Positions 2,194 to 58,874 of a stretch of DNA of 64,000 nt are shown here, piece after piece. The DNA comes from Arthonia radiata (lineage: Eukaryota > Ascomycota > Arthoniomycetes > Arthoniales > Arthoniaceae): positions 496,001-560,000 of the forward strand of contig PSQN01000004.1 in NCBI GenBank assembly GCA_002989075.1. Direction: 5' to 3'. Within the stretch, counting starts at the first letter, position 1, and the number at the start of each line of letters is the position of its first letter. Made by a program: the position numbers and the translations under genes. Below the pieces are notes generated by a model, which saw nothing but the letters and a program-made list of their open reading frames with translations, was not told where the DNA came from and searched no databases.

Positions 2194-2324
2194 ACGCTGG
2201 ACAGGCTGGTCTGGCGGTGGCAGCGGGGCAGGAGGGTGACGACACGGAGATCGAACGACCATCGGAGACAAATCTCCAAACAAAGCCTGTGGGCGAGTAC
2301 TGATACAAGGACAGATATTCTCGA

Positions 2325-2353
2325 CACCCTGATCAGGTATGTATCTGTGATGA
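2325..2353 (+). promoter_or_regulatory. Duplicated upstream block, copy B
   Basis: Partner of the block at 945-973; see that entry. It sits 130 bp after the stop of tandem copy 1 and upstream of tandem copy 2. The centre contains the palindrome TGATCA. Confidence 0.45.
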
Positions 2354-2688
2354 CGCACCTTATCTGTGCTGAGGATCTAAAAGAAGCGTGTTGTCACTAC
2401 TAGCAAGGTCTGCGGTACTCGCCGATCATTTGAGGGACGAAAGAATGCCTGGAGACCGCACACCCGCAAACGCGACCGCTATCGCCTCACGAATACATTG
2501 GAAACACGAGACGTATTACAGACCGCCGTACTAAACACGGTCTCCCTCGACAACCGCTGAGATCCATCAAATAGGCACGACCATCCTCAAACTCGCACTC
2601 GCCCTGTCTCAACGTCGCTACATCGACCTGTCTCCACTCTACAACACCAACACTCGCCACCTCATCCCCACAAAACTCCAGCACCAGC

Positions 2689-3117
2689 ATGACCGCCCCA
2701 AGAGACCCCGCCCCCCTCCCCTCGCACACCCTTCAACACCACCAAGACGCCGACTCCGACGACGCGCAGCACTCGAAGCAAATCGAGCGCGCCAACCGGA
2801 GCTGGGCGGACACGTTTGGGTCATTTCTCGCGGGTCTGTGGAAGTGTCATTCGCCTGCGCATGCGACGAGTAGAGAGGAGGTGGACCATTACGCGAGACT
2901 GCAGGAGAAGCAATTGGAGAGTGAGAGGGTCTTTGAGACTGGGAAGGGTGGGGAGAGTGGGAAGGCGGGGCCGAGTAGAAAGACTTTAGAGAGTGTCAAG
3001 GAAGATGGAGGGGGCTTGGCGAAGAAGTCGAGGGGAAAGAGAAAGAGGAAGAGGGAAAATGATGAAGAAGGCGGAGGTGGTAAAGGTGGTGACGAGGTTC
3101 GGGGCAGTGGGGTGTAG
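2689..3117 (+). CDS. Unrecognised small basic protein, tandem copy 2
   Basis: 142 residues. Residues 40-75 (FLAGLWKCHSP, then REEVDHYARL) align with the Trp/Cys block of the upstream gene (LLANMWGCFHP, then ETEYSAFCRL), and both proteins end G-x-SGV directly before TAG. The long coiled coil of copy 1 is missing. The C-terminus has a lysine/arginine cluster (KKSRGKRKRKRE) that would serve as a nuclear localisation signal. Same strand, 495 bp apart. Function unknown; tandem duplication followed by divergence is the simplest account. Confidence 0.5.
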   Translation: MTAPRDPAPLPSHTLQHHQDADSDDAQHSKQIERANRSWADTFGSFLAGLWKCHSPAHATSREEVDHYARLQEKQLESERVFETGKGGESGKAGPSRKTLESVKEDGGGLAKKSRGKRKRKRENDEEGGGGKGGDEVRGSGV

Positions 3118-4008
3118 GTCTTGAGTTGTAAGAAAGTTATGTCGTCGGCTGCTGCGTCACCGAGCTTTCTAACAGCCGAGCTGGACAGGATCAAGGTATA
3201 CCGAATACAGACACCGCCGCGATGTCGCGAGGTGCTCGTTGAGCGACTCGAGGAGCAGTTGCGGAAGCTCGAAGCCGGCAGCGCTTTCGTAAATCCGAGG
3301 CGTTCTGACAGCTCGAGGATTGCAAGCTTCAGCGCCGACGCTGCAATGGAGCAGACCCAAGAGTAGAAGAAAGAATGGAGAGGCCTGGGCGTGACTATGC
3401 TTTGAAGAGCCTGGGTGCTGTGATACCTCAGGTCTATGAAGTATCAGTATTCGGTACGGTGCTGCTGAAGTGGGTTACGAAGCCTGGAGAGATGTTGCGG
3501 GCACTTGGATGAAGCAATGCTTTCAGACAGCATCGATGCTGCGTTATCCAGCCATACGCCAGTGCAAAGCTTCTCGGCTCGGCTCCGCTGCTGCACACTC
3601 CGGACCGTGAAGAGACGGAATGGAGGCTCGAGTGCCTTCAAGCTTCTAAAGAGCATCGATATTTCATTGCCTGAGGCTTGTCAAAGCGTCCACGCCCCAG
3701 GAGAGCTCTACTCGACCAGGGCCCAGACCTCCGGGGGACTTTGTGGGATGCTTAAGTAATGCGATGCTTTTGTACAATATCTCCACTCACGCTAAACGTG
3801 TTTACAATACCTGCGAGTATCGATGTGCCAGTGCTGCTCAGTTCAGTGCGTCGTCAACCAAACCAGACATGGAACGTAGCCCAACCGGGCCTTTGCGCTC
3901 GAGCAGCACTTACACTCAACATACCTCATCCAATTCAGAGCACCAACACACAGCTCACAACAATCTCCCGCCACCCACCCTCTCTTCAGTCCACCGACCC
4001 TACACCAC
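3118..4008. other. Intergenic, about 0.9 kb
   Basis: Convergent gap between the small basic protein gene and the oxygenase gene. Only short open frames with no family features; I see nothing supportable. Confidence 0.5.
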
Positions 4009-5048
4009 TCACAAACCCCCATCCTCCCTATCCGTCCGCTTATAAAGCAAATCCGTCCTCACAGTAAACTTCACACCCCTCTTCACCTCCTCCCCACTAT
4101 GCATCAACCTCTTATGCTGAAAAATCAACACCCGTCCCTGCACGGCGCTCACATCCACCCGCGGCTCGGGCTCCTTCATCCCCAGCATCCCCCGTACCCC
4201 GCCCTTCGCTCGTCCCCCTCCATATTTCTTCCCCCAAAACGTCGTCTCACCACCCTCCACGCCCTCGCCGTTCAAATACAAATGCAGCGTATACAACGTC
4301 CGCTCATACGGTTTTGTGGCGTCCGCGGCACTCTCGTAGCTGCCGTCGCAGTGGCGGCCGAAGAAGGCGCCGGCGCTGTAGCGGAGGAAGCGCATGCGCT
4401 CGTTGGCGCGCGTGAAGGCCCAGGTTTGGGATTTGGCGGCGTATTCGCCTAGGACGGCTTCGGCGTTGCCGGCGGTTGTGGAGACGGTGGTGAGTTCGGT
4501 GCGGACGGCGCTGGGGTGGGTTAGTATGCCTGCGAAGGGGGTCGGTGCGGTGGATGGGTGGGATGGGATGCATGACCGAAAGAGTGCGTGAAGAGGTACG
4601 GCATGGAGAGGTGAAGCACCGAGGATAGTAGGAGAAACTCTCACCCATCCTCAGCATTCAAACACCGCTCAACAATCCGGTCCACAATCTCCTGGCGGTC
4701 CCAGATGATACGGTCACTCCTCCTATAATCCGTCGCAGCGATCTCAAAGTTGCCGCCCATGTTGACAAGAGCGGGCCGCCATGGGTCATTGCTATTCTCG
4801 CTGCTCTCCTCCGCCAGCTCTATCAGCTTCTTGCACTCGGACGGGCTTAGCACATTCTCCAACACGCGGGCGTAGAGGCCGTCGTAGTCTGGGATGGCGG
4901 AGTTGGCGAAGTCGATGCGATGGGTGGTGATCGGTTGAGAGTCCTCGGCCGGGGTGGTGAGGAAGGTGTCTGGGAGAGGGATCTGACGGCTGGTGTAGTT
5001 TACTTGGACTGGTTGAGAGTGGGAGGGGATGTTGGTGTTGGGTTTCAT
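4009..5048 (-). CDS. 2-oxoglutarate/Fe(II) oxygenase, prolyl 4-hydroxylase type
   Basis: Two exons, 5048-4645 and 4510-4009, with a 134-bp intron (GTGAG donor, TACTAAC branch site, CCCCAG acceptor); product 301 residues. The double-stranded beta-helix core shows the iron site HCD (His188, Asp190) and distal His272 in LMHSGEE. Lys282 in VKFTVRTD fits the 2-oxoglutarate-binding position. The GEGVEGGETTFW stretch is typical of P4H alpha-like domains. No signal peptide is seen, so a cytosolic or nuclear protein hydroxylase is more likely than a collagen-type ER enzyme. Substrate not predictable. The TSR3 gene follows upstream on the same strand. Confidence 0.85.
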
Positions 5049-44397: not shown

Positions 44398-45450
44398 ATG
44401 CGACCTCCGCACTTCGTATGGTTCGTTTCACTGGCCACAACATTCCACGCGAATGCCTCTCCACTCAAGCCAATGCCTCCATTCGTTCCCACTTCAATCT
44501 ACAATTGGACGAATCCTGTTGGAGGCGAGAATTTGATGCAGAGGCCCAACGGCAATCTAGTGGTAATTGTGACTGGAGCGCCAGACTTGTATCAAGTCAA
44601 TCCGTCACGGACCGGCGCTGAAGCTGCATCTGCCATATACAATTTCGCAGGCTACCAAAGTCTGTGGGGCATTGTTCAGCCGCAGCCAGACGTCTTCTAT
44701 GTCATTTCCGCCAATGCTAGCTCACCGCCAACTTATCGCCCGCCGCTCGGTACCAATACTCTTTGGCGTATTGACCTTACAAGTGCTGGCGATAGCTTAT
44801 CGCCAGATCCTTCATCAATCAAGGTCTCCAAGGTCGTAGATATCTGCCAAGCATTCACGCTTGATGGACTATCGGTGGTCAACGCTGAGAGAGGACTTCT
44901 GATCACAGGCGATGCCCACAGCGGTGCGCTTTATGTCATTGATGTCAACAGCCACTCATATGAAATTGTCTTTACAAGCTCTCAATTATATGAAACTGAC
45001 GCCTCCGATTATATTTTGGACCACTTTGGGATAAACGGCCTCAGGTATTTCCATCACGCTGTCTACTATACTAATTCTGCTCTTCAAACATTCGGTAAAA
45101 TCCCCATATCACCTATGACCGGAAGAGTCACGGGAGATCTCGAGGTGTTGACGACCGTGCCACGTCCCGACGACTTTTTCATTGACTCTATACATACGGC
45201 TTTGCTTACCGAACTTGAACATGGACTTTTCAGATATGACATGCGTGGTGGAAAGACATCCAATTCCTCTCTTGACTTATTATTCCCACTTGCCGCGGTG
45301 AACGCGGTTCTTTGGGGCTCAGGGTCTACAGCATGTACGCTTTACTGTCTGTTCAACCAAGGCGCTAGCTTGGAGATGAGATCGGGCCTCGTGCAGGTTG
45401 ACGTCAGTGGTAGTGGCCTCAAAGGTGGCCTTCTGGATGGTAATTGTTAG
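44398..45450 (+). CDS. Secreted SMP-30/gluconolactonase-like beta-propeller (pericyclase-family relative)
   Basis: 350 residues, one exon. Residues 1-20 form a signal peptide (FVWFVSLATTFHANA). The rest has the six-bladed propeller pattern of the fungal SMP-30-like family: FAGYQSLWGI, TNTLWRIDL, ICQAFTLDGLSV, LLITGDAHSGALYVID, INGLRYFHHAVYYTNS, FFIDSIHTALLTE. Fungal relatives include AsR5 and EupF, hetero-Diels-Alderases acting on humulene-derived quinone methides; other members have no known activity. Here it heads a group of oxidative and terpenoid-type genes, so an enzymatic or chaperoning role in late cyclisation is a reasonable inference, but I cannot identify catalytic residues by eye. 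Confidence 0.8.
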   Translation: MRPPHFVWFVSLATTFHANASPLKPMPPFVPTSIYNWTNPVGGENLMQRPNGNLVVIVTGAPDLYQVNPSRTGAEAASAIYNFAGYQSLWGIVQPQPDVFYVISANASSPPTYRPPLGTNTLWRIDLTSAGDSLSPDPSSIKVSKVVDICQAFTLDGLSVVNAERGLLITGDAHSGALYVIDVNSHSYEIVFTSSQLYETDASDYILDHFGINGLRYFHHAVYYTNSALQTFGKIPISPMTGRVTGDLEVLTTVPRPDDFFIDSIHTALLTELEHGLFRYDMRGGKTSNSSLDLLFPLAAVNAVLWGSGSTACTLYCLFNQGASLEMRSGLVQVDVSGSGLKGGLLDGNC

Positions 45451-45586
45451 CAGAACATACTCAACAGTGGACGTCGCTCGCGATTCACTCGACACTGGGG
45501 ATTGAAAGCCATGGATGATAATTGGAGTACGTTGCGATCTCATTTAATTCCCGATACGCGATTACATCATCTCGACGCTGCTGTTG

Positions 45587-47565
45587 TCAAAAGTTGCGGC
45601 TTTGACGTCTCGGGCGAAAATTAAGCCAACATTCGCCTGGGTACGCTGTAACCTCGTCCGTCATATTTTCCAACACACTAGACGGCTCGAATCCTGATGC
45701 AAACTGTATATGGAACTGTTTCAGCAACCGGCCAGTTACCAATTGTATCTCTGAGAGAGCTAAGTTCTTCCCAACGCACGATCGAGTCCCTGGTGATTGC
45801 TCAGCACATATGACGCTCGCTACGGCGATCTAATTAGCACTTACCGGCCCCAAACGGTACAAATGCACGCTTGTCGTAGATCAGCTCCGGCCTGCTATAC
45901 CACCTCTCTGGGATGAATGCCTCAGGGTCTCGAAACGCAGTGGGCACTATGAAGTCAGTGGCAGCTTGGGACAAATGGATGACATTTCTCACAGCGCAAA
46001 AGAGTATATCGTGGGGCGGCGATCTTGACGTTTCCAGGTATCCATGTGTCTGCTATCCGAAGTCCCTGCGGCGGAGTATAACGACTTGCGCCTGACATTG
46101 CTGCAGGACACGGCCGCATGGTTTCGTTGATGAATCCGTTCATGTGCTGCAAAGTTGCCAATTGATTTAGTTCTGTAACGTCGATGTCTTTGATCTCCTC
46201 GAAGACTCTGGCTGCATGTTCTGGATATAGTGCGAGATAGTAAAAAACAGCAATAAGACTCGGTCGCGTGGTGTCGCTATATCGACTCTTCAGTCAAGCT
46301 CAGGCGGAACATGCCGCGGTCACGCTGCTAACGTACCTTCCAGCTATCATGGCCGTCATGGTGTTTCCAAGCAGTATGTGCTGCCTTTCGGAAAAGCGTT
46401 TGGTGGTTGACAGCTGATTATACTCTTTGATAAACCAGGCGGCAATGTCCTTTCGATCTTCAGAAGTAGACTGCCATGTTGGGTCAGTCTGTACTCGGTG
46501 AGAACCCTTGCGAGCCTACTTCCTTTCATTCGCTGTATCATTCGCTGGTTACAGAATGCCTCGACCTGCATCCAGTCCTTGATTATGCCATAAAATGGCA
46601 AAAATGCAAAACCCAGCCTTGCGATCCAAAGCGATTCTGACATCAAGCCGAGAAGCGAGAGCGCATTTCTCTGTTGCAGTACGATTGGATGCCATTTGCT
46701 CGAGGTCATCATATCAAAACTCTTGTCGAACAGGAACTCACCCATAGAGTCGAATGAAAACCATGCGAGGACGTCGTTGACAAGTGCCGGTTTGTCCCCG
46801 TAAGATTCGATCAGCTCCGCCAGAGTATCGACTTGTCTCAGAATCCTGGGAAGGTAGGTCCTGATCGCTACAGGTCTGGTTAAGCAGTGCTTTCTCTGCG
46901 CAGATCTTGACGATCGGATCTCACATACATCTCACAGACATTGCTTGGCTCCAAAGCCGCCTTCGTCGCATATGCTCCAGCTCATCGCGCTCAAATACGG
47001 GAGAGTTCTTGGGATGGAGTACATCATACCACTCTGATCTTGTTGTGCCAGACTTCTCGATCAGCTCAACGGCCTCAGGTCTGTATACGGTGATCTCATT
47101 TGGACCTGCCAACGTTAACGTCATTAGAGATTTCGAAAATTGGGCCTGATTCAGCCGCTCAGATATCTTACCTGTTCGAACTATTTCCCCATGCTTGAGA
47201 TAGATATCGTGGAGCACTTGATAATTCTTGAGCCCACGACATTGCCAAACGTGCCAGAACTTGGTGAGTGCAGCCAATCTTGGCCCGCTGAAACTCGATA
47301 GTCTATGGAAAAACAGCCTGTAGATTGCAATGCTACTGAACAGAGAGCTAAAGTATGAAAGCAGCAGCTTGAGGTGCAGTCCAGATGCGGCGAGCATATC
47401 TTGGTTCCTCGATGCAAGCGCGGCCCAAAGCAATGAACTCAGAATGAGGTGGATTACGACCACTTGAGGCCCGACGAGATGCCACTCTCCTCTTATGAAA
47501 GCTGCATGATGGACGAAGACCCCGCAGCAGATTGCGGCCAATGGTGAGAATATCCAGTCCGTCAT
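45587..47565 (-). CDS. Cytochrome P450 monooxygenase (membrane-anchored)
   Basis: Seven exons: 47565-47172, 47105-46925, 46860-46520, 46457-46337, 46276-45993, 45946-45845, 45789-45587; introns 46-66 bp; 541 residues. All phases close. Motifs: membrane N-terminus ending HHAAFIRGEWHLVGP, FSGPRLAAL, oxygen-binding helix AGSDTT (residues 344-349), ExxR in ETMR, PERW, and the heme loop FVPFGAGTRSCVG with Cys479 as iron ligand. The sequence type is close to fungal benzoate-hydroxylase/tryprostatin-hydroxylase-like P450s in metabolite clusters. An upstream in-frame ATG at 47724 would add 53 residues; I prefer 47565 because it gives the usual anchor. The acceptor of intron 3 is the third AG, chosen by phase. 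Confidence 0.88.
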
Positions 47566-48494
47566 TATGATATTTGATGTCAGGGAAGCCGCAAAGATTG
47601 GTGTTGAGGAAGCAGCATTGATGACTTGACGTAGACAAGAAGCGGGACTATCTATGAGGAAGAGACCTAAATAGGTCACTACAAAGGCAGCGGAAGGCCT
47701 CAGCTGATCGGCGTGTTCATGCATGCGACTTGTTGCCTTAGATCATGTACAAGCAGATTCACAGCAGCAACCCCCATGGACAATGAGGTATAGTGACCCG
47801 CTAGCGTCTAATTTTCACACGGGGCTACATCCCTGCCAGGATCTGCGCCATGCGTTCGGGTCCAGACGCGTATGTGCTCCCTTTCCATGCTGTATGCTTG
47901 CCAAAGCTGTGGATAATCAACTCTGTAGCAGGCAGACGTGTGTTGCAGCTTGCAAGGAAGGGCAAGAGCTCTGGCTGTACCTATCAGCTTTGTGCAAGAA
48001 AGACGCAGATCCTCCCCGCAACTCAGCCAGACCCACTGCTCTGGGACTCAGCCTGACGGGCGATTTCTGCATCAGCGATGGTTTCTAGCTGCGGAAGGTA
48101 GCATTCAGCATTCACCGTATCCGTCTGCAGCCAGGTGGCACAGCAAGGCAGACATATGGCCGCTAGCAAGATGGACAGCAGGCATGCGGCGGTGCGCGGC
48201 GCTGAGAGTACTTCCAAAGATCGCAGCCAGCCATGCGGTTAAGCGGTACTAATGCATTGCCATGTCCTCCAAATAGGTTCGTTCAATATATCGCGATTGG
48301 AAATGTGCTCACTTCGATGTTGAGCTAGAGTGTATCTGCTTCAAGAATTTTGCTTTAGCCCCACTCCGGCCTAAGAGGCTTCAGCATCACCCTCCTCGCT
48401 AAGAGCACAGTAAGAGACAATCGATGAGCAAATCTGCGATCTAATGGTGAAACGGACGAAGTGATAATCCAATCCGGCTTGACCACCCTTGACA
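47566..48494. other. Divergent promoter region of the P450 and UbiA genes
   Basis: About 0.9 kb with no other gene. A bidirectional promoter between two cluster genes is common in fungal metabolite clusters. Confidence 0.45.
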
Positions 48495-49484
48495 ATGAGC
48501 GCTCTTCATTTCAGTCACACTGAGTCGCTTGTTTTTCGCACATGGAAGCTTCTAAGGAATGCTTGCCAAATATTCTGGCTCACTACCATGGATGACTTCG
48601 ACACTTTCGTCATCCCCAACACGGTGTTTGGCATTTTAGCCGCCATGTTAGACCCAAAATTCGCGCAGAAGGATTGGATACAGTCATTTTTTCGCCTAGT
48701 CCTCGTCATATCCTTCAACTGGTCAAATCTACTCATCTTCGACCTTGCAAACCAGCGTCTTCCAGCCTTTGTAGAGGAGGACAAGATTAACAGACCGTGG
48801 CGTCCTATCCCGGCAAAACGCATGTCCATGAAACAGGCTCGACTTTGCCTGCTCATGTGCTTGCCCTTGGTTTGGGCGCTCAACGTGGCCATGGGTACCT
48901 CAAAAGAGGCCAATATGATATTCGGTGGGACGTGGTTGTATAATGATCTCGGCGGAGGAGATAGCAATTGGCTTTTTCGAAACCTCCTCATTGCCTGCGC
49001 CTTTGCCGTTTACAACACCGGAAGCCTAAAGATGGCGGCTGGAGTGAGTGAGTTGAGCCGCTTGCAGAGAGAATGGATTGCTCTCATAAGTTGTATTATC
49101 TTCACTACAATGCACATACAGGACATGAAAGATCAGCCTGGGGATCGGAAGCGCGATCGACGAACTGCACCACTCGTGCTGGGTGACGGAATTGCGCGTT
49201 GGACCATCGCAATTTCAGTAGTAGTCTGGAGTTTCGTTTGCCGCCGTTTCTGGAGAACCTCAATGGCCATTACAACCCCTTCTCTGCTGTTGGGACTTAG
49301 GATAGCGGTGAGGTTGTTGCGCCGAAGGCAACCCAATGAAGACAGAGCGACTTGGAAGTTGTGGTGTGGATGGACCGCTGTGTTGTATTTGCTGCCACTG
49401 CTACAGAAGTTGGAGCAAAATTTCTTGACTCAAAGAATTGGCGGGACACATCTAGCATCTACGAGCTCACAGGCACAGTCGTAG
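48495..49484 (+). CDS. UbiA-superfamily membrane prenyltransferase/terpene cyclase (Fma-TC-like)
   Basis: 329 residues, one exon, with about seven to eight hydrophobic helices. The fungal UbiA-type terpene cyclase pattern is visible: DDFDTFVIPNTVFGILAA (Asp33/34), LLIFDLANQRL (Asp83), EDKINRPWRPIPAKR, YNDLGGGDSNWLFRNLLIA and the second acidic motif DMKDQPGDRKRD (Asp210, 213, 217). Relatives include Fma-TC, the bergamotene cyclase of fumagillin biosynthesis, and other uncharacterised cluster proteins. The reaction is probably on a prenyl diphosphate in the ER membrane: cyclisation, or transfer to an aromatic acceptor. There is no PKS nearby to supply an acceptor, which favours cyclisation. Probable backbone enzyme of the block. 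Confidence 0.85.
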   Translation: MSALHFSHTESLVFRTWKLLRNACQIFWLTTMDDFDTFVIPNTVFGILAAMLDPKFAQKDWIQSFFRLVLVISFNWSNLLIFDLANQRLPAFVEEDKINRPWRPIPAKRMSMKQARLCLLMCLPLVWALNVAMGTSKEANMIFGGTWLYNDLGGGDSNWLFRNLLIACAFAVYNTGSLKMAAGVSELSRLQREWIALISCIIFTTMHIQDMKDQPGDRKRDRRTAPLVLGDGIARWTIAISVVVWSFVCRRFWRTSMAITTPSLLLGLRIAVRLLRRRQPNEDRATWKLWCGWTAVLYLLPLLQKLEQNFLTQRIGGTHLASTSSQAQS

Positions 49485-49635
49485 ACGCGTTCGTTTTACA
49501 ATTGCCGTTGAGGGCACGAGGGGCAGCAGGTCCAAAACATACTTCAAGGTCTTGGAAAAGCTTTAGTTGTTATTTACTTCAGCTACCGAAGGAATTTCAA
49601 AGACCGGCGTCAAGAACGAACTCGAAATTTTCGGA

Positions 49636-50845
49636 TTAGCGATTGAACATCATTGAACTCAACGAGCAATGCTGTTTCAGCGAATTGAGCAAATCATCAT
49701 CTCTGACTGTGGTTGCCTGATCCATTCGTCTTACCTGTGACGGCCCGAATTCGTACGGCCAACCGTTGAAGCTTGACGTCATGACACTGCCTTTCTCAAT
49801 CTCGTTTGCCCTGTCTTTGAGCTCATTGACGTCCCAGTTCGAAAACACAAAGCGACCTTTGAGGAATGCAGCCTCCTTGGAGGACATCCAAACCATGAAG
49901 TGGGCGGCAAGTGTTGCTGAAAGAGTAAAAAAGGTCAGTGGCATTCAGTGTTACAATGTGCACATGCGTGATAGGGAAGAGAACCATACGTGGAGAATAT
50001 GTAGGAAGGAAATAAAAGAGGACAGGGGTTGAAAAGTTGCAGGCAAAACTTACGAGTATCCATTGGCAGCATCTCGGGAGTAGCGCCGGACGCTCGGAAG
50101 ATGGGGGAGTCGATCATGCCAGGCTGAGCGCTGGCGACAAAAAGGTGAGAATATTCCTCCGCAAGATACTCCAGCGTCTTTACTTGGGCCAACTTCGAGC
50201 ACAAGTATGATGAGAGGCCAGGTGTCATTTTCGGGCCGAACACCATGCCGCCTGCCGTATTTCCAATGATGACGGCTCGGTGCTTGTTCGCCGTAGGCAT
50301 GAAGGCTTTGGCTACAACAACGATCGATCGGACATTGACCTTTGCGAAGGTCAGCCTCTGTCATAGTTTTTGGATTGTTTCAGAAAAGTCAAACCTCGTA
50401 ACTTTTCCAGTAGTCGTCGAGGTCCGCCTTGTCGATAGGCGAAGGTGTGGATATGTAGCCGGCGTTCATGATGCGTCCCACGTTCCCACAGCCTCGGCGA
50501 CCTTAGTCATGGACTTCACGTCGCTCACGTCGGCAACGTGAATTGACACATGGCATTGATTCTTGATGAGGGACTTTGTCTTGGCCAGTGAAGCCTCAGT
50601 GCGGCCCACAAGCACGACATGTTTGGCATTGGCCTCAGAGAAGGCAATCGCAATTCTCTGGCCTATTGTACCACCCTAGATTGCATTCAGAACAGCCTTC
50701 TCATAGCAGATTTGAGATGCTTGCATACAGCACCGGTAATGATCACAGTCTTTCCCGACTGACTGAGGGCTTCACGACTTGGCGAGATCGCGCTGTAGGT
50801 GTCGTTGTGCCATGTCGGCGTTGCTGATGGGAAGGGTGGCTTCAT
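49636..50845 (-). CDS. Short-chain dehydrogenase/reductase with an apparent frameshift
   Basis: Exons 50845-50729, 50675-50395, 50339-50054, 49916-49636; introns 53, 55 and 137 bp. The Rossmann start is TVIITGAGGTIGQRIAIAF (across the first intron); NAG motif IMNAGYIS; active-site Tyr and Lys in SSYLCSKLA; then SAQPGMIDSPIF. The fold is complete at about 321 residues. In exon 2, near 50478, the frame breaks between VGTWD and IMNAG: one base seems missing, because frames before and after are both clearly conserved. It may be a pseudogene, a strain-specific loss, or a base-calling error. The last exon may also be spliced once more after GPSQ (63-bp GT-AG). Likely oxidises or reduces a cluster intermediate. 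Confidence 0.75.
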
Positions 50846-52134
50846 TCCTGATGACGATGGTCCCTGCTGCGGTTGCGTTCGCTCTGAAGTCGACTGTGAT
50901 CCTGATTGTGGTTTCTGAGACTTGCGACGGTTTTTGATCTTTCTTGCCCAAGTAAGAAAAGGTTGCATTGTGATAGTGAGAGCGGGTCACCTATCTGAGA
51001 AGATGATTCTGACGTCAGAAGCTCGCTCAACAGCTGCAGTGCTGCCTTCTGTAGCGCGAGTGCTCGTGCGATTGATGAAGGAGATCTTTGCCATAAGGAG
51101 GTTTGTGCAAGCGATAGGGACACCTGTTACGTCTGCACTGGACTCTCATGGCGCCTCATCTGCTGCAACTTTTCTGTACATATTGACCTAGTTGCCGTAC
51201 GCAAGGCTGACTTTGCAGTCCGCATCTGCCTGTGATAGTGTCGACAAGGATCCGCTTGAGTATTCAAAATGGCGAAGCCTCAAGACGGGGACTTTCCAGC
51301 CAGGAGAGTGTGGATACTGTAGGCAGATGCAGGGTTCGTGAGCACGAAATTGAGCCAATTTTCAAGGTGAACGTGACTGCCCCGTACTAATTACAGAGCA
51401 TATCGTCGTACATCGTCCTGCGTCAACGCTATTTGAACGGCACGAGCGCCTGATCGCGGAAGATATCCGGCGGCGCACCGCAACGCATGCCAAACCCTGT
51501 TCAGTTAGCTCCCGCGATCGCTCCCGCACCATTGGATGGACCGGAATCCCCCTGATGTCCTCCGGCTCAAGAGCAGGCTTTGTTTTCTGCATACTCCGGA
51601 AAGGTGAGCCCCCCAAGCGTTTGATGTTTATTGATACAATGCACTCGATCAAAGAACCCAAGACACCACGCCATCTTTGAAGACAACCGACAGAGTAATG
51701 CATGCACTCGTAAAACCATACTCTTTGCGGCCGCGGCGTTGCTGTGCCGCAATGCATACCCTACACGTCACGTCACTAATCTCGGCTCGCTCGATGATTC
51801 GCTTGCCAGTGCTCTTCCACACGCATGCAGTACTCTGCACTTGTGACTGATCACACGCATTCTGACCCCGCTTGCAGAGGATTAAGGAGGCGTAGCAGGT
51901 TGAAACCGCCTCCTTGAAGACATTACATTACGATTGCACAACGAGCCGAGCGCTGCGGCGTTTTAGCGCTAGAACACGCGGATTCTGGCACTCTTATTGG
52001 TGTAGTCGGCTCGATCATCAACAACACTATCAACACGTAGCGCTGGGGAGCTGTAGGCCTCTGCCTGCACTAGCTAGGCAACTATCCCTAACGGCAAGTT
52101 TGCAGAGCTAACCTAACCTTGATAGGGACGTTAT
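50846..52134. other. Intergenic, about 1.3 kb within the cluster
   Basis: No convincing gene. A minus-strand frame around 51362-51757 reads partly like protein (EPEDIRGIPVHPMVRERSRE) but I cannot place it in a family or find clean exons; it may be a remnant. Confidence 0.4.
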
Positions 52135-53980
52135 CTATTCGCGGCACAGCTTGCCATCCAGATGTTCTGCCCATCGTTCACTTCCAACACCGGTCAAGGT
52201 GTAGAACAGATCATTGGGATCGTACTTGGCCTTTATGCTCACCAATCGATTGTAATTATCTCCGTAGAAAACGTGCTGGAACTTCGCCTGCTGGAAGTTC
52301 TCCTCGTTGAGATACGCTGCTCCATGTGGAGTAAGAGACTCTAGTTTGGGGACCAGGACGTTTGTCATTCGGGTCTGAGATGCAAGGTTGTCATCCCAGT
52401 CCCTTTCATTCCACGGCCTATATTTTCGTCAGTGCAACGCTTTCTCTCTGAAGAATTGTTCTCGACTCGTCACTCACGTTCCGATCACAGCACTGTATAG
52501 CGACAGCCGCCAGTACGGATGGACAGAATTGGGACCCGCAAGGTTTGCAGTGCTTGAGACGTTGATACAAGTCCCTGAGAGCACTGCCCCCGTGCTCAAG
52601 ATATAACGGACCGCAGCTGTGAGTTCAGTACTGTTCTCCTCCACGAGGGAGCGGGGTATAAGTCGGCCACCGATCTGGGCCTGGGAGACATTCCACGGAG
52701 TGTTGAAAGCGTCATAGCTATCCAGGTACGAGTCGAATTCTTGACTGTCATACTCTGTGAGCTGAAGTCAGCGTTCACTCATTCTTTACCAGTCTTGCAT
52801 GGTGCTTGAGAATACCGTATGGAATGTCGAGCTCAACTAGCCTTTCGAGTGTCGGCTGCATCAGCTTATCTACCTGGGACTTTCTCAATCCTGGCGCGCT
52901 CAGTGGCATCAAAGTGAAAGATTGACTAGTGACGAAGAAAATAGCCACGGCTCCCGAGTCGACAATCTTCGGCAAGCTACTCTGAAACGTCCGGAATACG
53001 TCCCAAAACTTCTCTTGGTCAGTGCCAGCGTTGGCAAAGGTCAAATTGGCAGCGCTCGTAACCAAGTCTAGATAAACTTTGCTTGTGAGTGATACTACTG
53101 CCCCATACGTACCCCCACCGCCCCCGGAGAGGGCCCAGTAGAGGTCAGAGTTCTCCAAAGGTGTCGCTACTACAATCTCACCATTGCTAGTCACAACCTC
53201 CCATTCAAGCGCTTGGTCCGCTCCCAGCCCAAATCTCGAAGCGAGAGGACCATGGCCACCTCCTTGCGTGTAGCCGCCAGCAAGGCCAACCGTTGGACAG
53301 TTCCCTCCGACGACCACGTACCCGTTTTTCTGTGCGACTCTATAGGCGTCGATGGCCTGGACGCCAGCTCCCAATTTGACGGCTTTCCCGGTGTAATAGG
53401 AACGAGAATAGTCCAGAAATTCGATTGATTTCATGTTGTGTGTCCAAAGAGCTACAGCGCCAGCCCCGGTAGCCTTCCCATTATAGTCGTGGCCAGTGTT
53501 TCGTACGGTAAGACGAATGTCATGCCTGGAAGCAAAGTCGATTGTTTTCTGATAGTCCACAGCGCTACTAGCGTTTACGGAGTACCGTACGTAGTTTCCA
53601 AATGTGCAAGAACCATCGGTTGCGAGGAAAGGGCTGCAGCTGCGATTTGCGAAGTAAGGCGCCATTATCGAAGATGGGGACTCGAAATGAGTTTCTGGAA
53701 GGTACCATCTCGACTGCAACTCTGTGCAGTGAGAAGCTGAAGCGGGCCCAAAGGAGCTGTTGTAACAGGAGCTTGCAATGGGTATCGTGGAGATCAGCTT
53801 GCCTTCTAGAGTCTTATTGAACTCGTCCCAAGCTGAAACATCCGGCCAGCAAGGATCGCCTGGGAAGCAACGACACCTGTTAAGTGCTTGACTGTCTCTA
53901 CGGGGTGAACTGTGTTGTCGAATGTCGACTGCTGATGCTAGATTAGCAAGGAGTGGAATCCAAATCAACTTTACAGCCAT
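52135..53980 (-). CDS. Secreted berberine-bridge-type FAD oxidase
   Basis: Three exons: 53980-52816, 52754-52478 and 52417-52135, introns 61 and 60 bp; 574 residues. The start is the ATG at 53980, which gives a signal peptide (KLIWIPLLANLASA); an earlier in-frame ATG at 54049 has none. FAD-binding PCMH domain: His164 in VRNTGHDYNG and Cys228 in GGNCPTVGLAGG match the two residues that bind the flavin covalently in BBE-type oxidases, followed by YTQGGGHGPLASRFGLGAD. The BBE C-terminal segment is YGDNYNRLVSIKAKYDPNDLFY. N-glycosylation sites (NSS, NRS, NAS) fit secretion. It probably oxidises a C-H, alcohol or phenol of the product. Confidence 0.92.
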
Positions 53981-54548
53981 TGCACTTGTGTTTTTCGACT
54001 GCTTTAGATGTATGGAGTCGGGTTCAGATAACCTATCTTGAATGCCCATCTGCTGATTTGGCGCTGCTTCATCTGTAAGACGAAGATCAAGGTCGACGTT
54101 GCATTTAATGACGCAACGCTACTTTAACGCTCATGCAAGCTAGTCTTTATGTATGACAGGTCCCATGCTGACTGCTGAGCTGCATACCTGCATGAGCGTC
54201 TCAGCCTCCACATTCTCCACCGGGCAGGGATTATCGAAAAACATCAGGCGTTCCAATACGTTTGCTGTGCCGCCGCAAGGCAGATACAAGTCTTTTTGCG
54301 CGCTTGGTGCCCGCCTCATTGATCGACGGCATGTGTCCCATTTTCTCGCCGGAGAAGTTGCCAAATAAGACTTCGTGTTGCCAAGTCGAGGGGATAGGCC
54401 GACAGCTGAGGACTGGTGTTCTATTTTCGAACGACTTCATCATTGGTTTGCCGGCAAATTCTCTTCGGTTTATTGGAGCAGCGGTCGCGAGTGCACCCAT
54501 TCTCTTCTCGAAAATCATTCGCATTACTATCCTTAGAACCGAAGCACC
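53981..54548. other. Divergent promoter region of the FAD oxidase and PTH11-like genes
   Basis: 568 bp between starts; nothing else recognised. Confidence 0.5.
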
Positions 54549-55907
54549 ATGGCTATCAGCGCGAGAGGCCAACAGTTGAACGCCTTGGCGATAGTGTTCA
54601 TCGTCCTCACATCACTTACAATGGCTTTAAGGTTCTGGGCGATGCAAGTTCAGCGGAGGAGATTCCGCGTTGACGACGCCTTCATCATACTAGCTTTTGT
54701 AAGCAGTACAGCGCCGTTGAGTTCTTTTCGATGACGAGAATGAAGCTGACTTCCTTCTCACTCTAGGCAAACATACTCGCTCTACAAGGAGTAGGGTGGT
54801 GGGGTATGGGAAGGGATCGCAGGGTACCTTTGAGCCAAAAAACTGACTACTACTGACAGCCATTGCAAACGGTCTCGGCGCTGAGACAATTGAACTTACA
54901 ATACAGCAAGCCGCTGTGCAACAGAAGGTCAGACTCATTGGATAGAGTGACCTCTGAAAGTTTCAAAAACTTGCTGACAATGGCAGCAGTTGACATTCTC
55001 GTCATTCTTCACCTGGACATTTGGTACTGTGTTCTGCAAGGTCTCCATGCTGTTTCTGTACACAGAAATATTTGCCCACCGTACTTTCCAGCGCGTGGCA
55101 TACGTCATGATAGGCATCCGTATGGCCTACGCGGTCGCTTTTGTCCCAACGTTCGTCACTCATTGCATGCCACCGCAATCAGCCTGGGATCCATCTGTCC
55201 ATGGCGAATGTAGACCGTTCGAATCCCAGGAGTACGCCTCAGTGTCAATCAACATGGTCTTAGACTTGCTGGTGGTGGTGCTCCCCCTTCCGATTATCTG
55301 GAGGCTTCAAATGCCAGTGAGAAAGAAGATTGGCGTGAGTGTTGTATTCAGCCTCGGTCTGGCGTGAGTTGCGGCTTTGTTTCTCAAATGTCATCTCATA
55401 GCTCAGGCCCATGCACTGACGGCAAGCGACAGAATCATAGCGATCATGATCTGGAGAATCCAGTACACCTCCATCTCGATCTCCAACGCGAACTGGAATT
55501 ATAGCCTGTATATCACGTCAATACAGAGCGCACTCGAGTTATGGCTTGGGATAATCGCGACAAATCTTCCAACCATAACACCACTCGCATCCCACAAGTT
55601 GGTACCAGCAATGAAGGGTTATTACAATAGCTTGCAGGTGCGACTGCAAAGTAGTAAACGTCGTCGCCAACCGAAAAATGGCTCATCCGGCCAAGGCATT
55701 CCCAAGTTTGGGAGCCGCACATTCATGCATCTTGATGGGGAGTCAGGTATAGAACTGGCCGAACGACAAGCTGCGCGCAACTACAGAAAGGCTACAACCG
55801 ATGGATACCAACATCAGTATCGCTCAGACAATATCGAGAGGACTGGAATGAGCCGAGACATTGACGTATACGACGAGCCAAGAAGAGCTGCTCACGCTTT
55901 GGTGTAG
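54549..55907 (+). CDS. PTH11-like seven-helix membrane protein (rhodopsin-fold domain)
   Basis: Five exons: 54549-54698, 54767-54803, 54860-54927, 54990-55363 and 55433-55907; introns 68, 56, 62 and 69 bp; 367 residues. Seven hydrophobic helices can be followed, beginning ALAIVFIVLTSLTMALRF and ending ALELWLGIIATNLPTITPL. Family marks: RFRVDDAFI after helix 1, GVGWWAIANGLG, FCKVSMLFLYTEIF, CMPPQSAWDP, and the last helix NLPTITPL. The tail is basic and polar. PTH11-like receptors sense surfaces or small molecules, but many family members in clusters have no known role; sensing or transport of the product is inference. Exon 2 is only 37 nt; its donor was chosen by phase. Confidence 0.85.
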
Positions 55908-57219
55908 GAACATGAGTTGCTCAGATGATCATCGGCCCAGCGGTCCAAAACTTCGGCTGCAGTTTGACGCTCAACATTGTCTCATCCATGAAGCGGCAGT
56001 CATGACGAGTATCGGCTACCAAGCATCGAGCTGATTTATATGACAAGAGAGAACACTGTTGATGTTGGTTTGTTGTCAGTCCTGACGAGTATAGTGCACG
56101 TCAAGATCTCTCAGTATTGCTAAAGTAGTGTTTCGAATGATGCCATGGAATACGGTCGTACCTATGACAAGCATCGCATGATAGGTGTAATTCTGTGTCT
56201 TGGAGTTATGTTCAAGCCAAAATATCAGAGCGAGTGGCGCTGTTGCCATCTGTAAACTTCTTCAATGCAATCACGATATTAACTTGAGCTTCAGCACCCT
56301 CCAAGCCAAGCGCTGCGCGAGGTGGGTATAATCCTAAGTCAGGGTGCAGCGCCTGTCATGGTGAGACGGATAGGCCAAGAGCGTTCAATGTTGTAGCGGC
56401 CGCGAGCCAGTAGCCACATTCCCTCCGTCGCTGTAGCGGAGCTTGCAAATTGAGTAGATTAAATCGTTCTCGACCACGCGGTCTCAAAAACCAGCGCTTT
56501 CATCAAAACTTCCGCCCGCACGCTCAGTGGTGCGGCCATGCAAGACCTATGGAGGTGATATGCTGTGGGTGTGGCCCAGTTCAGACGGCCATGTCAAGAC
56601 AGAATGATTCCATTTGAGGGGGGAGTTATACATCAGAAACGGTCTGTGCGTGTCCAGCAATATCTCTGCCCACCACCGCACGGTACGTTGCCACGAAATG
56701 CGTAATTAAGCAGCCGGAACCCGTATCTGTATATTGGGAACAGAGTCAGAGATTGTATAGATCAAACATTGTCCCCGGAAACTGATAAGGTATATGGCTT
56801 TTATCACATTCCGATTGACATGGTAGGAAGGTGGGAGACATGGCATGAGACTGAAGATATGAAGACGTCTATCACGTGATCTCAATATATGCCTATTCAG
56901 GCAATTTTCCACCAGCCCGTGTCTTGGGTGCTTGGCATGGCCATCTGGACTGGGCGGTCCTGCCCACAACAGAAACGCTCTTGTTCTCGAGATATTTAGC
57001 AGGATTTCTAGATACTCCGTACTATCATTGCCTCTAATACTGTAACACAAGATAGCGTATCTCGGTACCCAGGACCCAGGTGCCAGGGGAGAGAAATCTG
57101 TATGTCAAAGAAGCACGGGCCGTTTCTGATGTTTAATTCCAACCCCAAATTCAATCCCGACCATCGACCATCCTGCCAACCGAGCGGCAGTTTGTGACCG
57201 CCAATCGGATCCTCACACT
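55908..57219. other. Intergenic, about 1.3 kb within the cluster
   Basis: No gene recognised on either strand. Confidence 0.45.
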
Positions 57220-58874
57220 ATGGCATTCATTCGCTACGCTGGTGCGTCCTGAGTCCGTTGAATTGAACTTTGCCAACGGTTCGTGCTAGGCTTTAGCGAA
57301 CGAAGATGCATCGCTCGAGACACATTTGGGCTCTATGGTGCAATCGTCACTCTGGCGACTTACACAACACAAGCATCAAAACTGCCTGAAGCGCTCAGAG
57401 ATGTTATCATCAAGGCTTTGAGGCGCTGCGTAAGCCAGCATCCCGTACTGCGGACCGTGATATGCGATGCCGAATCGGAGCAGCCCAGACTTGAAGCAAT
57501 ACCAAGACTGGATCTGAACAGGCATCTGCTCCTCCTGCCCACCGAGACAGACGATAGCGAGCATGTCCCTCGCAGGCTTTTGGAACGGATACTCAATGAG
57601 CCACTCGGTGATCGTCACACGGTACCGCAGTGGCGACTTTACGTTCTCCCCATTGCAGCGCAGTCGAATGCATCAGTGACAGACTACAAAGTCGCTTTCG
57701 CGGCTTCCCACGCCCTCACAGATGGCATGTCAGGATTGATATTCCACTCTACGTTTCTCGAAGGTATGCAAGAGAGTGACCATGCCACGTCTGACTCGGG
57801 GCATATGTACGAAACCCAACCATCAGACCCGAGCTTGTCTCAGTCCCTGGAGCAAGTCACGCCTCTGTACATCTCATGGTCATACCTGCTGAAGACTCTA
57901 TCGAACGAGTTCCTGCCCAAGAGCATCGTGAGATTCCTGGGGTTAAGCACGAGCGGAACGACCGACCGCTGGCTCGGTGCACCAACCCGACCCAGCAGAC
58001 CCGCGACCCGAGAATTGCTTCAAACAGCCGCCAGAATCACTTCGATCCCTGGAACAACGGTGCAGAAGGTGTTGCAGTCTTGCCGCCGACATGATGCACG
58101 CTTGACCGGCCTGATCACTCGCCTTGCCGGCCACGCACTTGCGCGCGCTCTGGCAGGTCAACAGCTCAACTATTCGTCATTTGCTGTTCAGACGGCGATC
58201 GATCTGCGGCGCTGCATCCCCGGCGCCCAAGCGACTATAGCCAATTATTTCTCGGCCGTGCCCGAATTCGTCGGAGTAGAAATGCCCCAGCACGGAGAAG
58301 CCCGCAATTTTAGCGATGATGACTGGATAGCCGTAGGTCTTGGAGCAGCCACACATTTCGTTCTGTGCCTCCATTGTCATTGTCAGGCAGCTAGCGCGTC
58401 GGCGTTGTCTCAAAACACTTTGTTTCAGCTAGAATCTCAGAAGAGGCTGTGCTGACATCTTCCTTCTAGGTCCGGCGCTCCACAGAGCTTCTCAAACAAA
58501 AGTCAAGCTCGCCAGTCGATCAGCCCATTGCGCTGCTTAAGTATGTCGGCAACATCTCGAACTGGATTCTCCAGAGCAGCAAGAAACCCCCGGCGGACTC
58601 CTATACCGTGAATAACTTAGGAGCTTTCGAGAACGCGGCCGCCGCAGAAGGAGCGAGTAGTTCCCAATGGACGGTGAAGGACATTGCGGCTTCGCAGAGT
58701 GCTAGTGGGGTGGGTGAGCCTCTTTCCATTAACGTTGCGAGCGTGAAAGGGGGGCCGTTGTCGCTGGTCGTATGTTGGGAGCCGGGAGCGCTCGGCGTCA
58801 ACGACGAGGACGTTTTTGTGGCAGACGTATGTGCATTCATTCGGGGCGGTCTTTACTCGATCGGAAATGCGTGA
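57220..58874 (+). CDS. HxxxDG acyltransferase (alcohol acetyltransferase-like)
   Basis: Three exons: 57220-57241 (22 nt), 57290-58332 and 58470-58874; introns 48 and 137 bp; 489 residues. The tiny first exon gives MAFIRYAG before FSERRCIARD. The catalytic motif is SHALTDGMSG (His148, Asp152), as in BAHD, condensation-type and Atf-like acyltransferases using acyl-CoA. The second landmark, near the C-terminus, is PLSLVVCWEPGALG. Relatives include fungal alcohol O-acetyltransferases and cluster acetyltransferases. Likely acylates a hydroxyl group of the cluster product. It is cytosolic; no signal peptide or membrane helix. Confidence 0.85.

Follow-up and report, generated by a model that had tools for sequence, protein, structure and literature searches.

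A candidate UbiA-centred terpenoid gene cluster in Arthonia radiata and the recurrence of its UbiA, P450 and PTH11-like arrangement within one genome

Introduction

Seven consecutive accessory genes at positions 44398-58874 of a 64,000-nucleotide stretch of the ascomycete Arthonia radiata (the window: positions 496001-560000 of contig C14, in a 33.5 Mb assembly of 16 contigs) raise the question of which protein could make the backbone of a natural product there, and of whether the genes belong to one pathway. We consider it likely that they form a biosynthetic cluster whose product is an oxidised and probably acylated terpenoid, and whose backbone enzyme is a membrane terpene cyclase of the UbiA type, encoded next to a cytochrome P450. 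Here, we have compared the motifs of the UbiA-type protein with those printed for known enzymes, and we have searched the rest of the genome for loci of the same arrangement; the labels C1, C5 and C11-C16 denote contigs of this genome.

We regard it as a credible cluster of a known kind, with the recurrence of its arrangement within one genome as the new support, and with a propeller protein that resembles the hetero-Diels-Alderase EupfF as its most interesting part.

Results

The UbiA-type protein

The candidate backbone enzyme is encoded at 48495-49484, and its PF01040 score (1.6e-19) lies above the cut-off, identifying it as a membrane protein of the UbiA family. Its motif I is NQRLPAFVEED (residues 86-96) and its motif II is QDMKDQPGD (residues 209-217). 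In the excerpts of PMC9835599, motif II of UbiA-type cyclases is given as QDXXDXXXD and motif I is printed as NXXX(G/A)XXXD; motif II of the window protein agrees with the former, and is one residue off that of Pb_BisA, for which the excerpts of PMC11745945 print NQRHPGSVAED as motif I and QDMYDQPGD as motif II. When the two motifs I, which are of equal length, are aligned, the asparagine, the alanine at the G/A place and the aspartate agree, while the literal spacing of the printed formula fits neither protein. Fungal UbiA prenyltransferases are described by NDxxDxxxD, YxxxK and DxxxD in the available part of PMC12790560 (NDxxDxxxD also in that of PMC9835599), and the window protein lacks NDxxDxxxD as its motif I. 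By motif, the protein is of the cyclase type; the sequence-only reading had ascribed to it the motif set of Fma-TC-like cyclases, and its motifs match those printed for Tps1A, Fma-TC, EriG and Pb_BisA.

Across the genome, PF01040 finds six UbiA genes: four are mutually related, and two, located on C12, are COX10 and COQ2 candidates as judged by reading their sequences. The window protein is 31-39% identical to its three other paralogues, as opposed to 18% and 16% to the COQ2 and COX10 candidates, on which basis we reject a role in primary metabolism of the COQ2/COX10 type; the grouping with ubiquinone or heme-A members that the sequence-only reading had named among the outcomes that would refute it is not what we find. 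At the G/A place of motif I, the alignment of the paralogues has A at C11, T at C16 and D at C13.

Recurrence of the arrangement in the genome

The comparison of the surroundings of all six UbiA genes has revealed that each of the four non-housekeeping genes has a P450 at 1.8-3.1 kb and a PTH11-like gene at 3.7-6.1 kb, while neither of the two housekeeping genes has a listed P450 or PTH11-like gene within 150 kb. The three loci outside the window are the following:

C11, 1095766-1105957: propeller (34% identical to that of the window), PTH11-like gene, alpha/beta hydrolase, methyltransferase, UbiA, P450
C13, 1501381-1512619: 2-oxoglutarate (2OG)-Fe(II) oxygenase, UbiA, P450, PTH11-like gene, major facilitator superfamily (MFS) fragment just below the Pfam cut-off
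C16, 1630787-1639584: PTH11-like gene, MFS gene, UbiA, P450

At three of the four loci (C14, C11 and C16) the UbiA and P450 genes are arranged head to head, and at C13 they share a strand. The proximity counts are based on 99 P450 pieces merged into 63 loci, and on 150 of 158 PTH11-like pieces in 126 loci, both of which are lower bounds; the distance limits were chosen after the data had been seen, so that the proximity figures serve as guides. For random points, a P450 is present within 3.2 kb in at most about 1.4% of cases, and a PTH11-like gene within 6.2 kb in at most about 4.9%. In a stricter control, a PTH11-like gene is present within 10 kb of 4/4 UbiA-linked P450 loci, against 16/59 other P450 loci (Fisher p=0.008), and of two of the 15 ketosynthase places (out of 25 pieces genome-wide) that were included in the comparison. 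The PTH11-like genes of the UbiA loci do not group as a separate sequence family: the nearest relative of the window gene is located on C15, followed by one on C11, and the link between PTH11-like and UbiA genes is therefore positional. A search of the open literature has returned no paper that joins UbiA, PTH11, gene cluster and terpene.

By score, the P450s that accompany the other three UbiA genes are also the closest relatives of the window P450 in the genome. The window P450, which carries ETMR and FGAGTRSCVG and has a long hydrophobic N-terminus, has its best other loci, by summed bits over 70 pieces (its own included), at C16 (about 336), C13 (about 329) and C11 (about 269), followed by C14:114363 (about 219) and C15:1261627 (about 204); the direct comparison of the five P450s gives the same split, with 395, 369 and 326 for those adjacent to UbiA genes against 240 and 225. 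In a tree of P450s, the window is paired with C13 (92/92, not starred), and in the UbiA tree C11 and C16 are split off with 96/99, leaving the window with C13; with four loci, the two trees would agree by chance in one case out of three. The pattern fits, without proving, a duplication of a UbiA-P450 pair.

A bacterial relative

When prokaryote genomes were scanned with the alignment of the four UbiA paralogues, three loci were confirmed out of 156 candidate stretches, one of them strong and two weak. The strong one is from Trinickia terrae (NZ_SWJE01000011.1), with a UbiA protein that is 31% identical over 213 residues, and with a P450 gene in the same orientation 49 bp upstream of it (the pair is located at 2293-4648 of the extracted stretch); this P450 is distant from that of the window (25% over 169 residues), so that UbiA and P450 genes are paired in another lineage too, where the P450 is of a different kind. 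Within the bacterial family, the UbiA gene is not widespread: at E<=1e-10 it occurs in one of 398 genomes, which is the query's own. Our open-literature search has found no paper that treats Trinickia, UbiA and terpene together. In a metagenome-assembled genome of Candidatus Sumerlaeota, a distant UbiA-like open frame (3764-4618 of the extracted stretch) has DSINKPWRPLP and KDLSDLKGD, without the Q of motif II.

The seven genes of the window

The gene models of the cluster have been built by hand from splice signals, with domains assigned by Pfam; six of the seven are intact with plausible introns, and the seventh is broken. Positions are those of the window:

44398-45450, forward strand: propeller of the EupfF/PycR1 kind; one exon, 350 amino acids, no Pfam family
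45586-47724, reverse strand: cytochrome P450; 7 exons, 595 amino acids, intact; PF00067 E=3e-45
47725-48494: divergent intergenic region between P450 and UbiA, 770 bp
48495-49484, forward strand: UbiA-type terpene cyclase candidate; single open frame, 329 amino acids; PF01040 E=1.6e-19
about 49636-50968, reverse strand: short-chain dehydrogenase/reductase (SDR), interrupted frame; two halves, each adh_short at about 6e-9; 3' end uncertain
52138-53980, reverse strand: berberine-bridge-type (BBE) flavin adenine dinucleotide (FAD) oxidase; 3 exons, 574 amino acids; PF01565 7e-19, PF08031 1e-11
53981-54548: divergent intergenic region between BBE and PTH11-like genes, 568 bp
54549-55907, forward strand: PTH11-like membrane protein with fungal rhodopsin domain; 5 exons, 368 amino acids, intact; PF20684 3e-49
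57220-58874, forward strand: alcohol-acetyltransferase-type (AATase) acyltransferase; 3 exons, 489 amino acids, HALTDG; PF07247 2e-20

The exon ends of the P450 are not certain, with one acceptor being AAG and one intron being 46 bp long, and a small gene finder, for which long open frames from the window served as the training set, left the cluster genes below its threshold. To the left, the cluster is flanked by SKI3 (2e-127) and sterylglucosidase A (2e-287 to 8exd), and to the right by a protein that has no Pfam family; among natural proteins it matches TFIIIC tau131 best (2e-11), an engineered repeat protein scoring higher. The gene content, the coordinates and the housekeeping genes on both sides, as first read from the bare sequence, agree with the hand-built models, the Pfam domains and the flank matches; the divergent or closely spaced pairs proposed then are also borne out, by the two divergent regions listed above and by convergent gaps of 135 bp (propeller and P450) and 151 bp (UbiA and SDR, whose end is unsure). 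Six cluster genes have a GC content at third codon positions (GC3) of 0.49-0.58 and the AATase gene has one of 0.60, against 0.59-0.70 for four conserved genes of the window used for comparison.

The SDR, which had been counted as an ordinary member gene, does not hold as such: its frame is interrupted within 50460-50505, just ahead of the MNAG motif, and the break may be that of a pseudogene or an assembly error. The closest solved protein to the BBE oxidase is MtVAO615 (3e-136). The oxidase carries NTGHDYNG and GGNCPTVG, whose His and Cys positions we take to be FAD attachment sites; these positions suggest that the FAD is bound bicovalently. The AATase is the sole match to PF07247 in the genome at E<=0.001. 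By a simple measure of N-terminal hydropathy (propeller 1.75, BBE oxidase 1.99, AATase 1.81), the N-terminus of the propeller could be a signal peptide, and the BBE oxidase and the propeller, which both start with a hydrophobic stretch, may act in the secretory path, an inference that is weak because the same measure also scores the start of the AATase.

The propeller

The propeller, which matches no Pfam family, shares with EupfF and PycR1 a six-bladed beta-propeller family, as seen in both sequence profile and predicted fold. A single-sequence phmmer search gives EupfF at 1.6e-7 and PycR1 at 3.3e-6, while a profile of three paralogues gives PycR1 (4e-31) and EupfF (3e-28) along almost the entire length, followed by 2p4o (2.5e-22); for the AlphaFold2 model (mean confidence, pLDDT, of 72), the top four Foldseek matches are EupfF and PycR1 (E 7e-14 to 2e-12), again followed by 2p4o (5e-12). 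The earlier label of "SMP-30-like propeller" misses EupfF and PycR1 as the closest solved relatives, though 2p4o, whose annotation is that of a putative SMP-30-type lactonase, ranks next and outranks Drp35 and SMP30. EupfF and PycR1 are fungal hetero-Diels-Alderases, about 20% identical to the window propeller, and AsR5 is a homologue of EupfF. In the reactions of EupfF and AsR5 described in the excerpts of PMC8902786, a polyketide of the tropolone type is coupled to a sesquiterpene of the humulene type; in this the window differs, having no polyketide synthase (PKS). Paralogues of the propeller also occur away from UbiA loci, on C1 and C5; because the one on C1 adjoins a gene that by eye looks ribosome-associated, cycloaddition enzymes are probably just a part of the family.

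Comparison with known UbiA-type systems

In fumagillin biosynthesis of Aspergillus fumigatus, as in the window, the gene of a UbiA-type cyclase adjoins that of a P450: Fma-P450 (Afu8g00510) and Fma-TC (Afu8g00520) have neighbouring locus tags and are successive enzymes, the P450 acting straight after the cyclase, according to the excerpts of PMC7020470, where a keto-reductase, a dioxygenase and a methyltransferase (Fma-KR, Fma-C6H, Fma-MT) are also named. These tailoring types, together with the P450, are also found among the window and its sister loci taken together. Fumagillin, unlike the window, has an ester-joined polyketide branch, and the window, unlike what those excerpts give for fumagillin, has BBE, propeller and PTH11-like genes; the likeness to Fma-TC is one of motifs, not of sequence comparison.

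The tps1 and tps2 bisabolene clusters of Antrodia cinnamomea (Tps1A, Tps2A; excerpts of PMC9835599) share with the window a UbiA-type cyclase with QDXXDXXXD, and in tps1 a P450 (Tps1H) oxidises the UbiA product; they differ in being from a basidiomycete, and for tps1 the excerpts name three P450s, reductases and a methyltransferase, with no mention there of a propeller, a BBE oxidase or a PTH11-like protein. For Pb_BisA, a UbiA-type sesquiterpene cyclase from a Penicillium study (PMC11745945), the likeness is to its printed motifs, and its own role is based on transcription and phylogeny in the part of the study available. The same excerpts name BibS as a UbiA-type sesquiterpene cyclase; cyclases of this kind are from Penicillium, Stachybotrys and Fusarium.

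Discussion

Several observations weigh against a seven-gene terpenoid cluster built around a cyclase. Motif II is common to all four UbiA paralogues, including those of C13 and C16 though these lack G/A in motif I, and for this reason motif II is a mark of the family that does not prove cyclisation on its own. The comparison with known UbiA cyclases is one of printed motifs, the UbiA tree being composed of the paralogues of this genome and COQ2; the AlphaFold2 model of the protein is poor (pLDDT 58.5), and its fold search gives 240 matches at E<=10, none of them at E<=0.001. The tree of six P450s has left two of its three inner branches open, and does not resolve the four UbiA-adjacent P450s as one clade against the two outgroups. 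The SDR is broken, the cluster has no transcription factor or transporter gene, and in five promoter regions there is no 8-mer common to at least four and no 9- or 10-mer common to at least three. Recurrence at all four loci is limited to the P450 and the PTH11-like gene, with the propeller at two loci and the BBE oxidase and AATase at one; the SDR pieces, the BBE oxidase and the AATase of the window have no tblastn match (E<=0.01) at the C11, C13 and C16 loci and, being unmatched there, could be chance neighbours.

The last of these points leads to the alternative that survives best, which we regard as possible yet doubtful: that the UbiA and P450 genes, with or without the PTH11-like gene, are the sole unit, and that the propeller, SDR, BBE oxidase and AATase genes are unrelated neighbours in an accessory stretch. 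The narrow recurrence and the lack of a shared promoter word fit this, as does the presence of PTH11-like genes near 16 of the 59 other P450 loci; on the other hand, the genes form an uninterrupted block between conserved genes, their convergent and divergent gaps are tight, six of the seven (all but the AATase) have a GC3 below that of each of the four conserved genes compared, and the propeller recurs at C11, while differing tailoring genes are what is expected of diversified clusters.

It is unlikely that the UbiA protein is instead a prenyltransferase that acts on an aromatic or other acceptor made elsewhere, which would make the product a meroterpenoid. Most members of the UbiA superfamily are prenyltransferases, the NCBIfam matches of the window protein, all weak and far below the cut-off, are to prenyltransferase models, and the EupfF/PycR1-like propeller is reminiscent of meroterpenoid pathways that couple a terpene with a polyketide tropolone; against these stand the NDxxDxxxD and DxxxD of the published prenyltransferases, in place of which the window protein has NQRLPAFVEED and a motif II of the cyclase form, and the distance of 489 kb to the sole ketosynthase hit on the window contig (25 hits in the genome). 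By that same distance, the PKS part of the earlier claim that the cluster has no PKS, nonribosomal peptide synthetase (NRPS) or classical terpene synthase is upheld; for NRPS genes, the search did not extend genome-wide.

A decaying cluster that has lost its function, for which the interrupted SDR frame would speak, is improbable, since the remaining six genes have intact models, which include the catalytic motifs as far as these are known, and the single break may be an assembly error.

Returning to the terpenoid cluster that we favour, the gene content, the motifs and the recurring UbiA-P450-PTH11 arrangement are observed, and from these we infer the substrate, all of the reactions, the order of the steps and the joint action of the genes as follows. 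The UbiA-type protein would ionise farnesyl diphosphate, or possibly another prenyl diphosphate, through its Asp-rich motifs, yielding a cyclic sesquiterpene at the membrane; the divergently encoded P450, located at the same membrane, would oxidise this hydrocarbon, in analogy to Fma-P450 and Tps1H. The SDR, if functional in other strains, may adjust a ketone or an alcohol; the BBE oxidase, perhaps in the secretory path, would oxidise an alcohol or form a ring; and the AATase would acylate an alcohol. The propeller would take part at a late step and might be a lyase, a lactonase or a pericyclase, while the PTH11-like protein would not be an enzyme but a sensor or a receptor for self-recognition. 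A more specific route, free of polyketide, is a long shot: the propeller, if secreted, would carry out a pericyclic or quinone-methide-type step on the UbiA-made terpene once the P450 and the BBE oxidase have oxidised it, the propeller-bearing loci C14 and C11 would represent two pathways of this sort within the family of four UbiA-P450-PTH11 loci, and the PTH11-like receptor would sense the product.

A cluster of this composition could escape tools that look for PKS, NRPS, DDxxD or QW signatures, as the sequence-only reading had suspected; in agreement with this, a published survey states that the SMURF tool left UbiA-like genes out of consideration. The genome has four UbiA-type candidates against one hit to PF19086, other classical terpene synthase families lying outside our search, so that a tool restricted to classical synthases could undercount its terpene capacity. 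The PF19086 hit (C1:2169511, within C1:2164785-2171399) has P450 pieces at 1.6 kb and a PTH11-like gene at 1.2 kb; both gene types are near all five terpene-type loci seen in the genome.

Terpene cyclases of the UbiA type are easily missed, and the recurring arrangement of UbiA, P450 and PTH11-like genes offers a simple rule for finding such clusters, as well as a testable link between the making of terpenes and a receptor-like gene.

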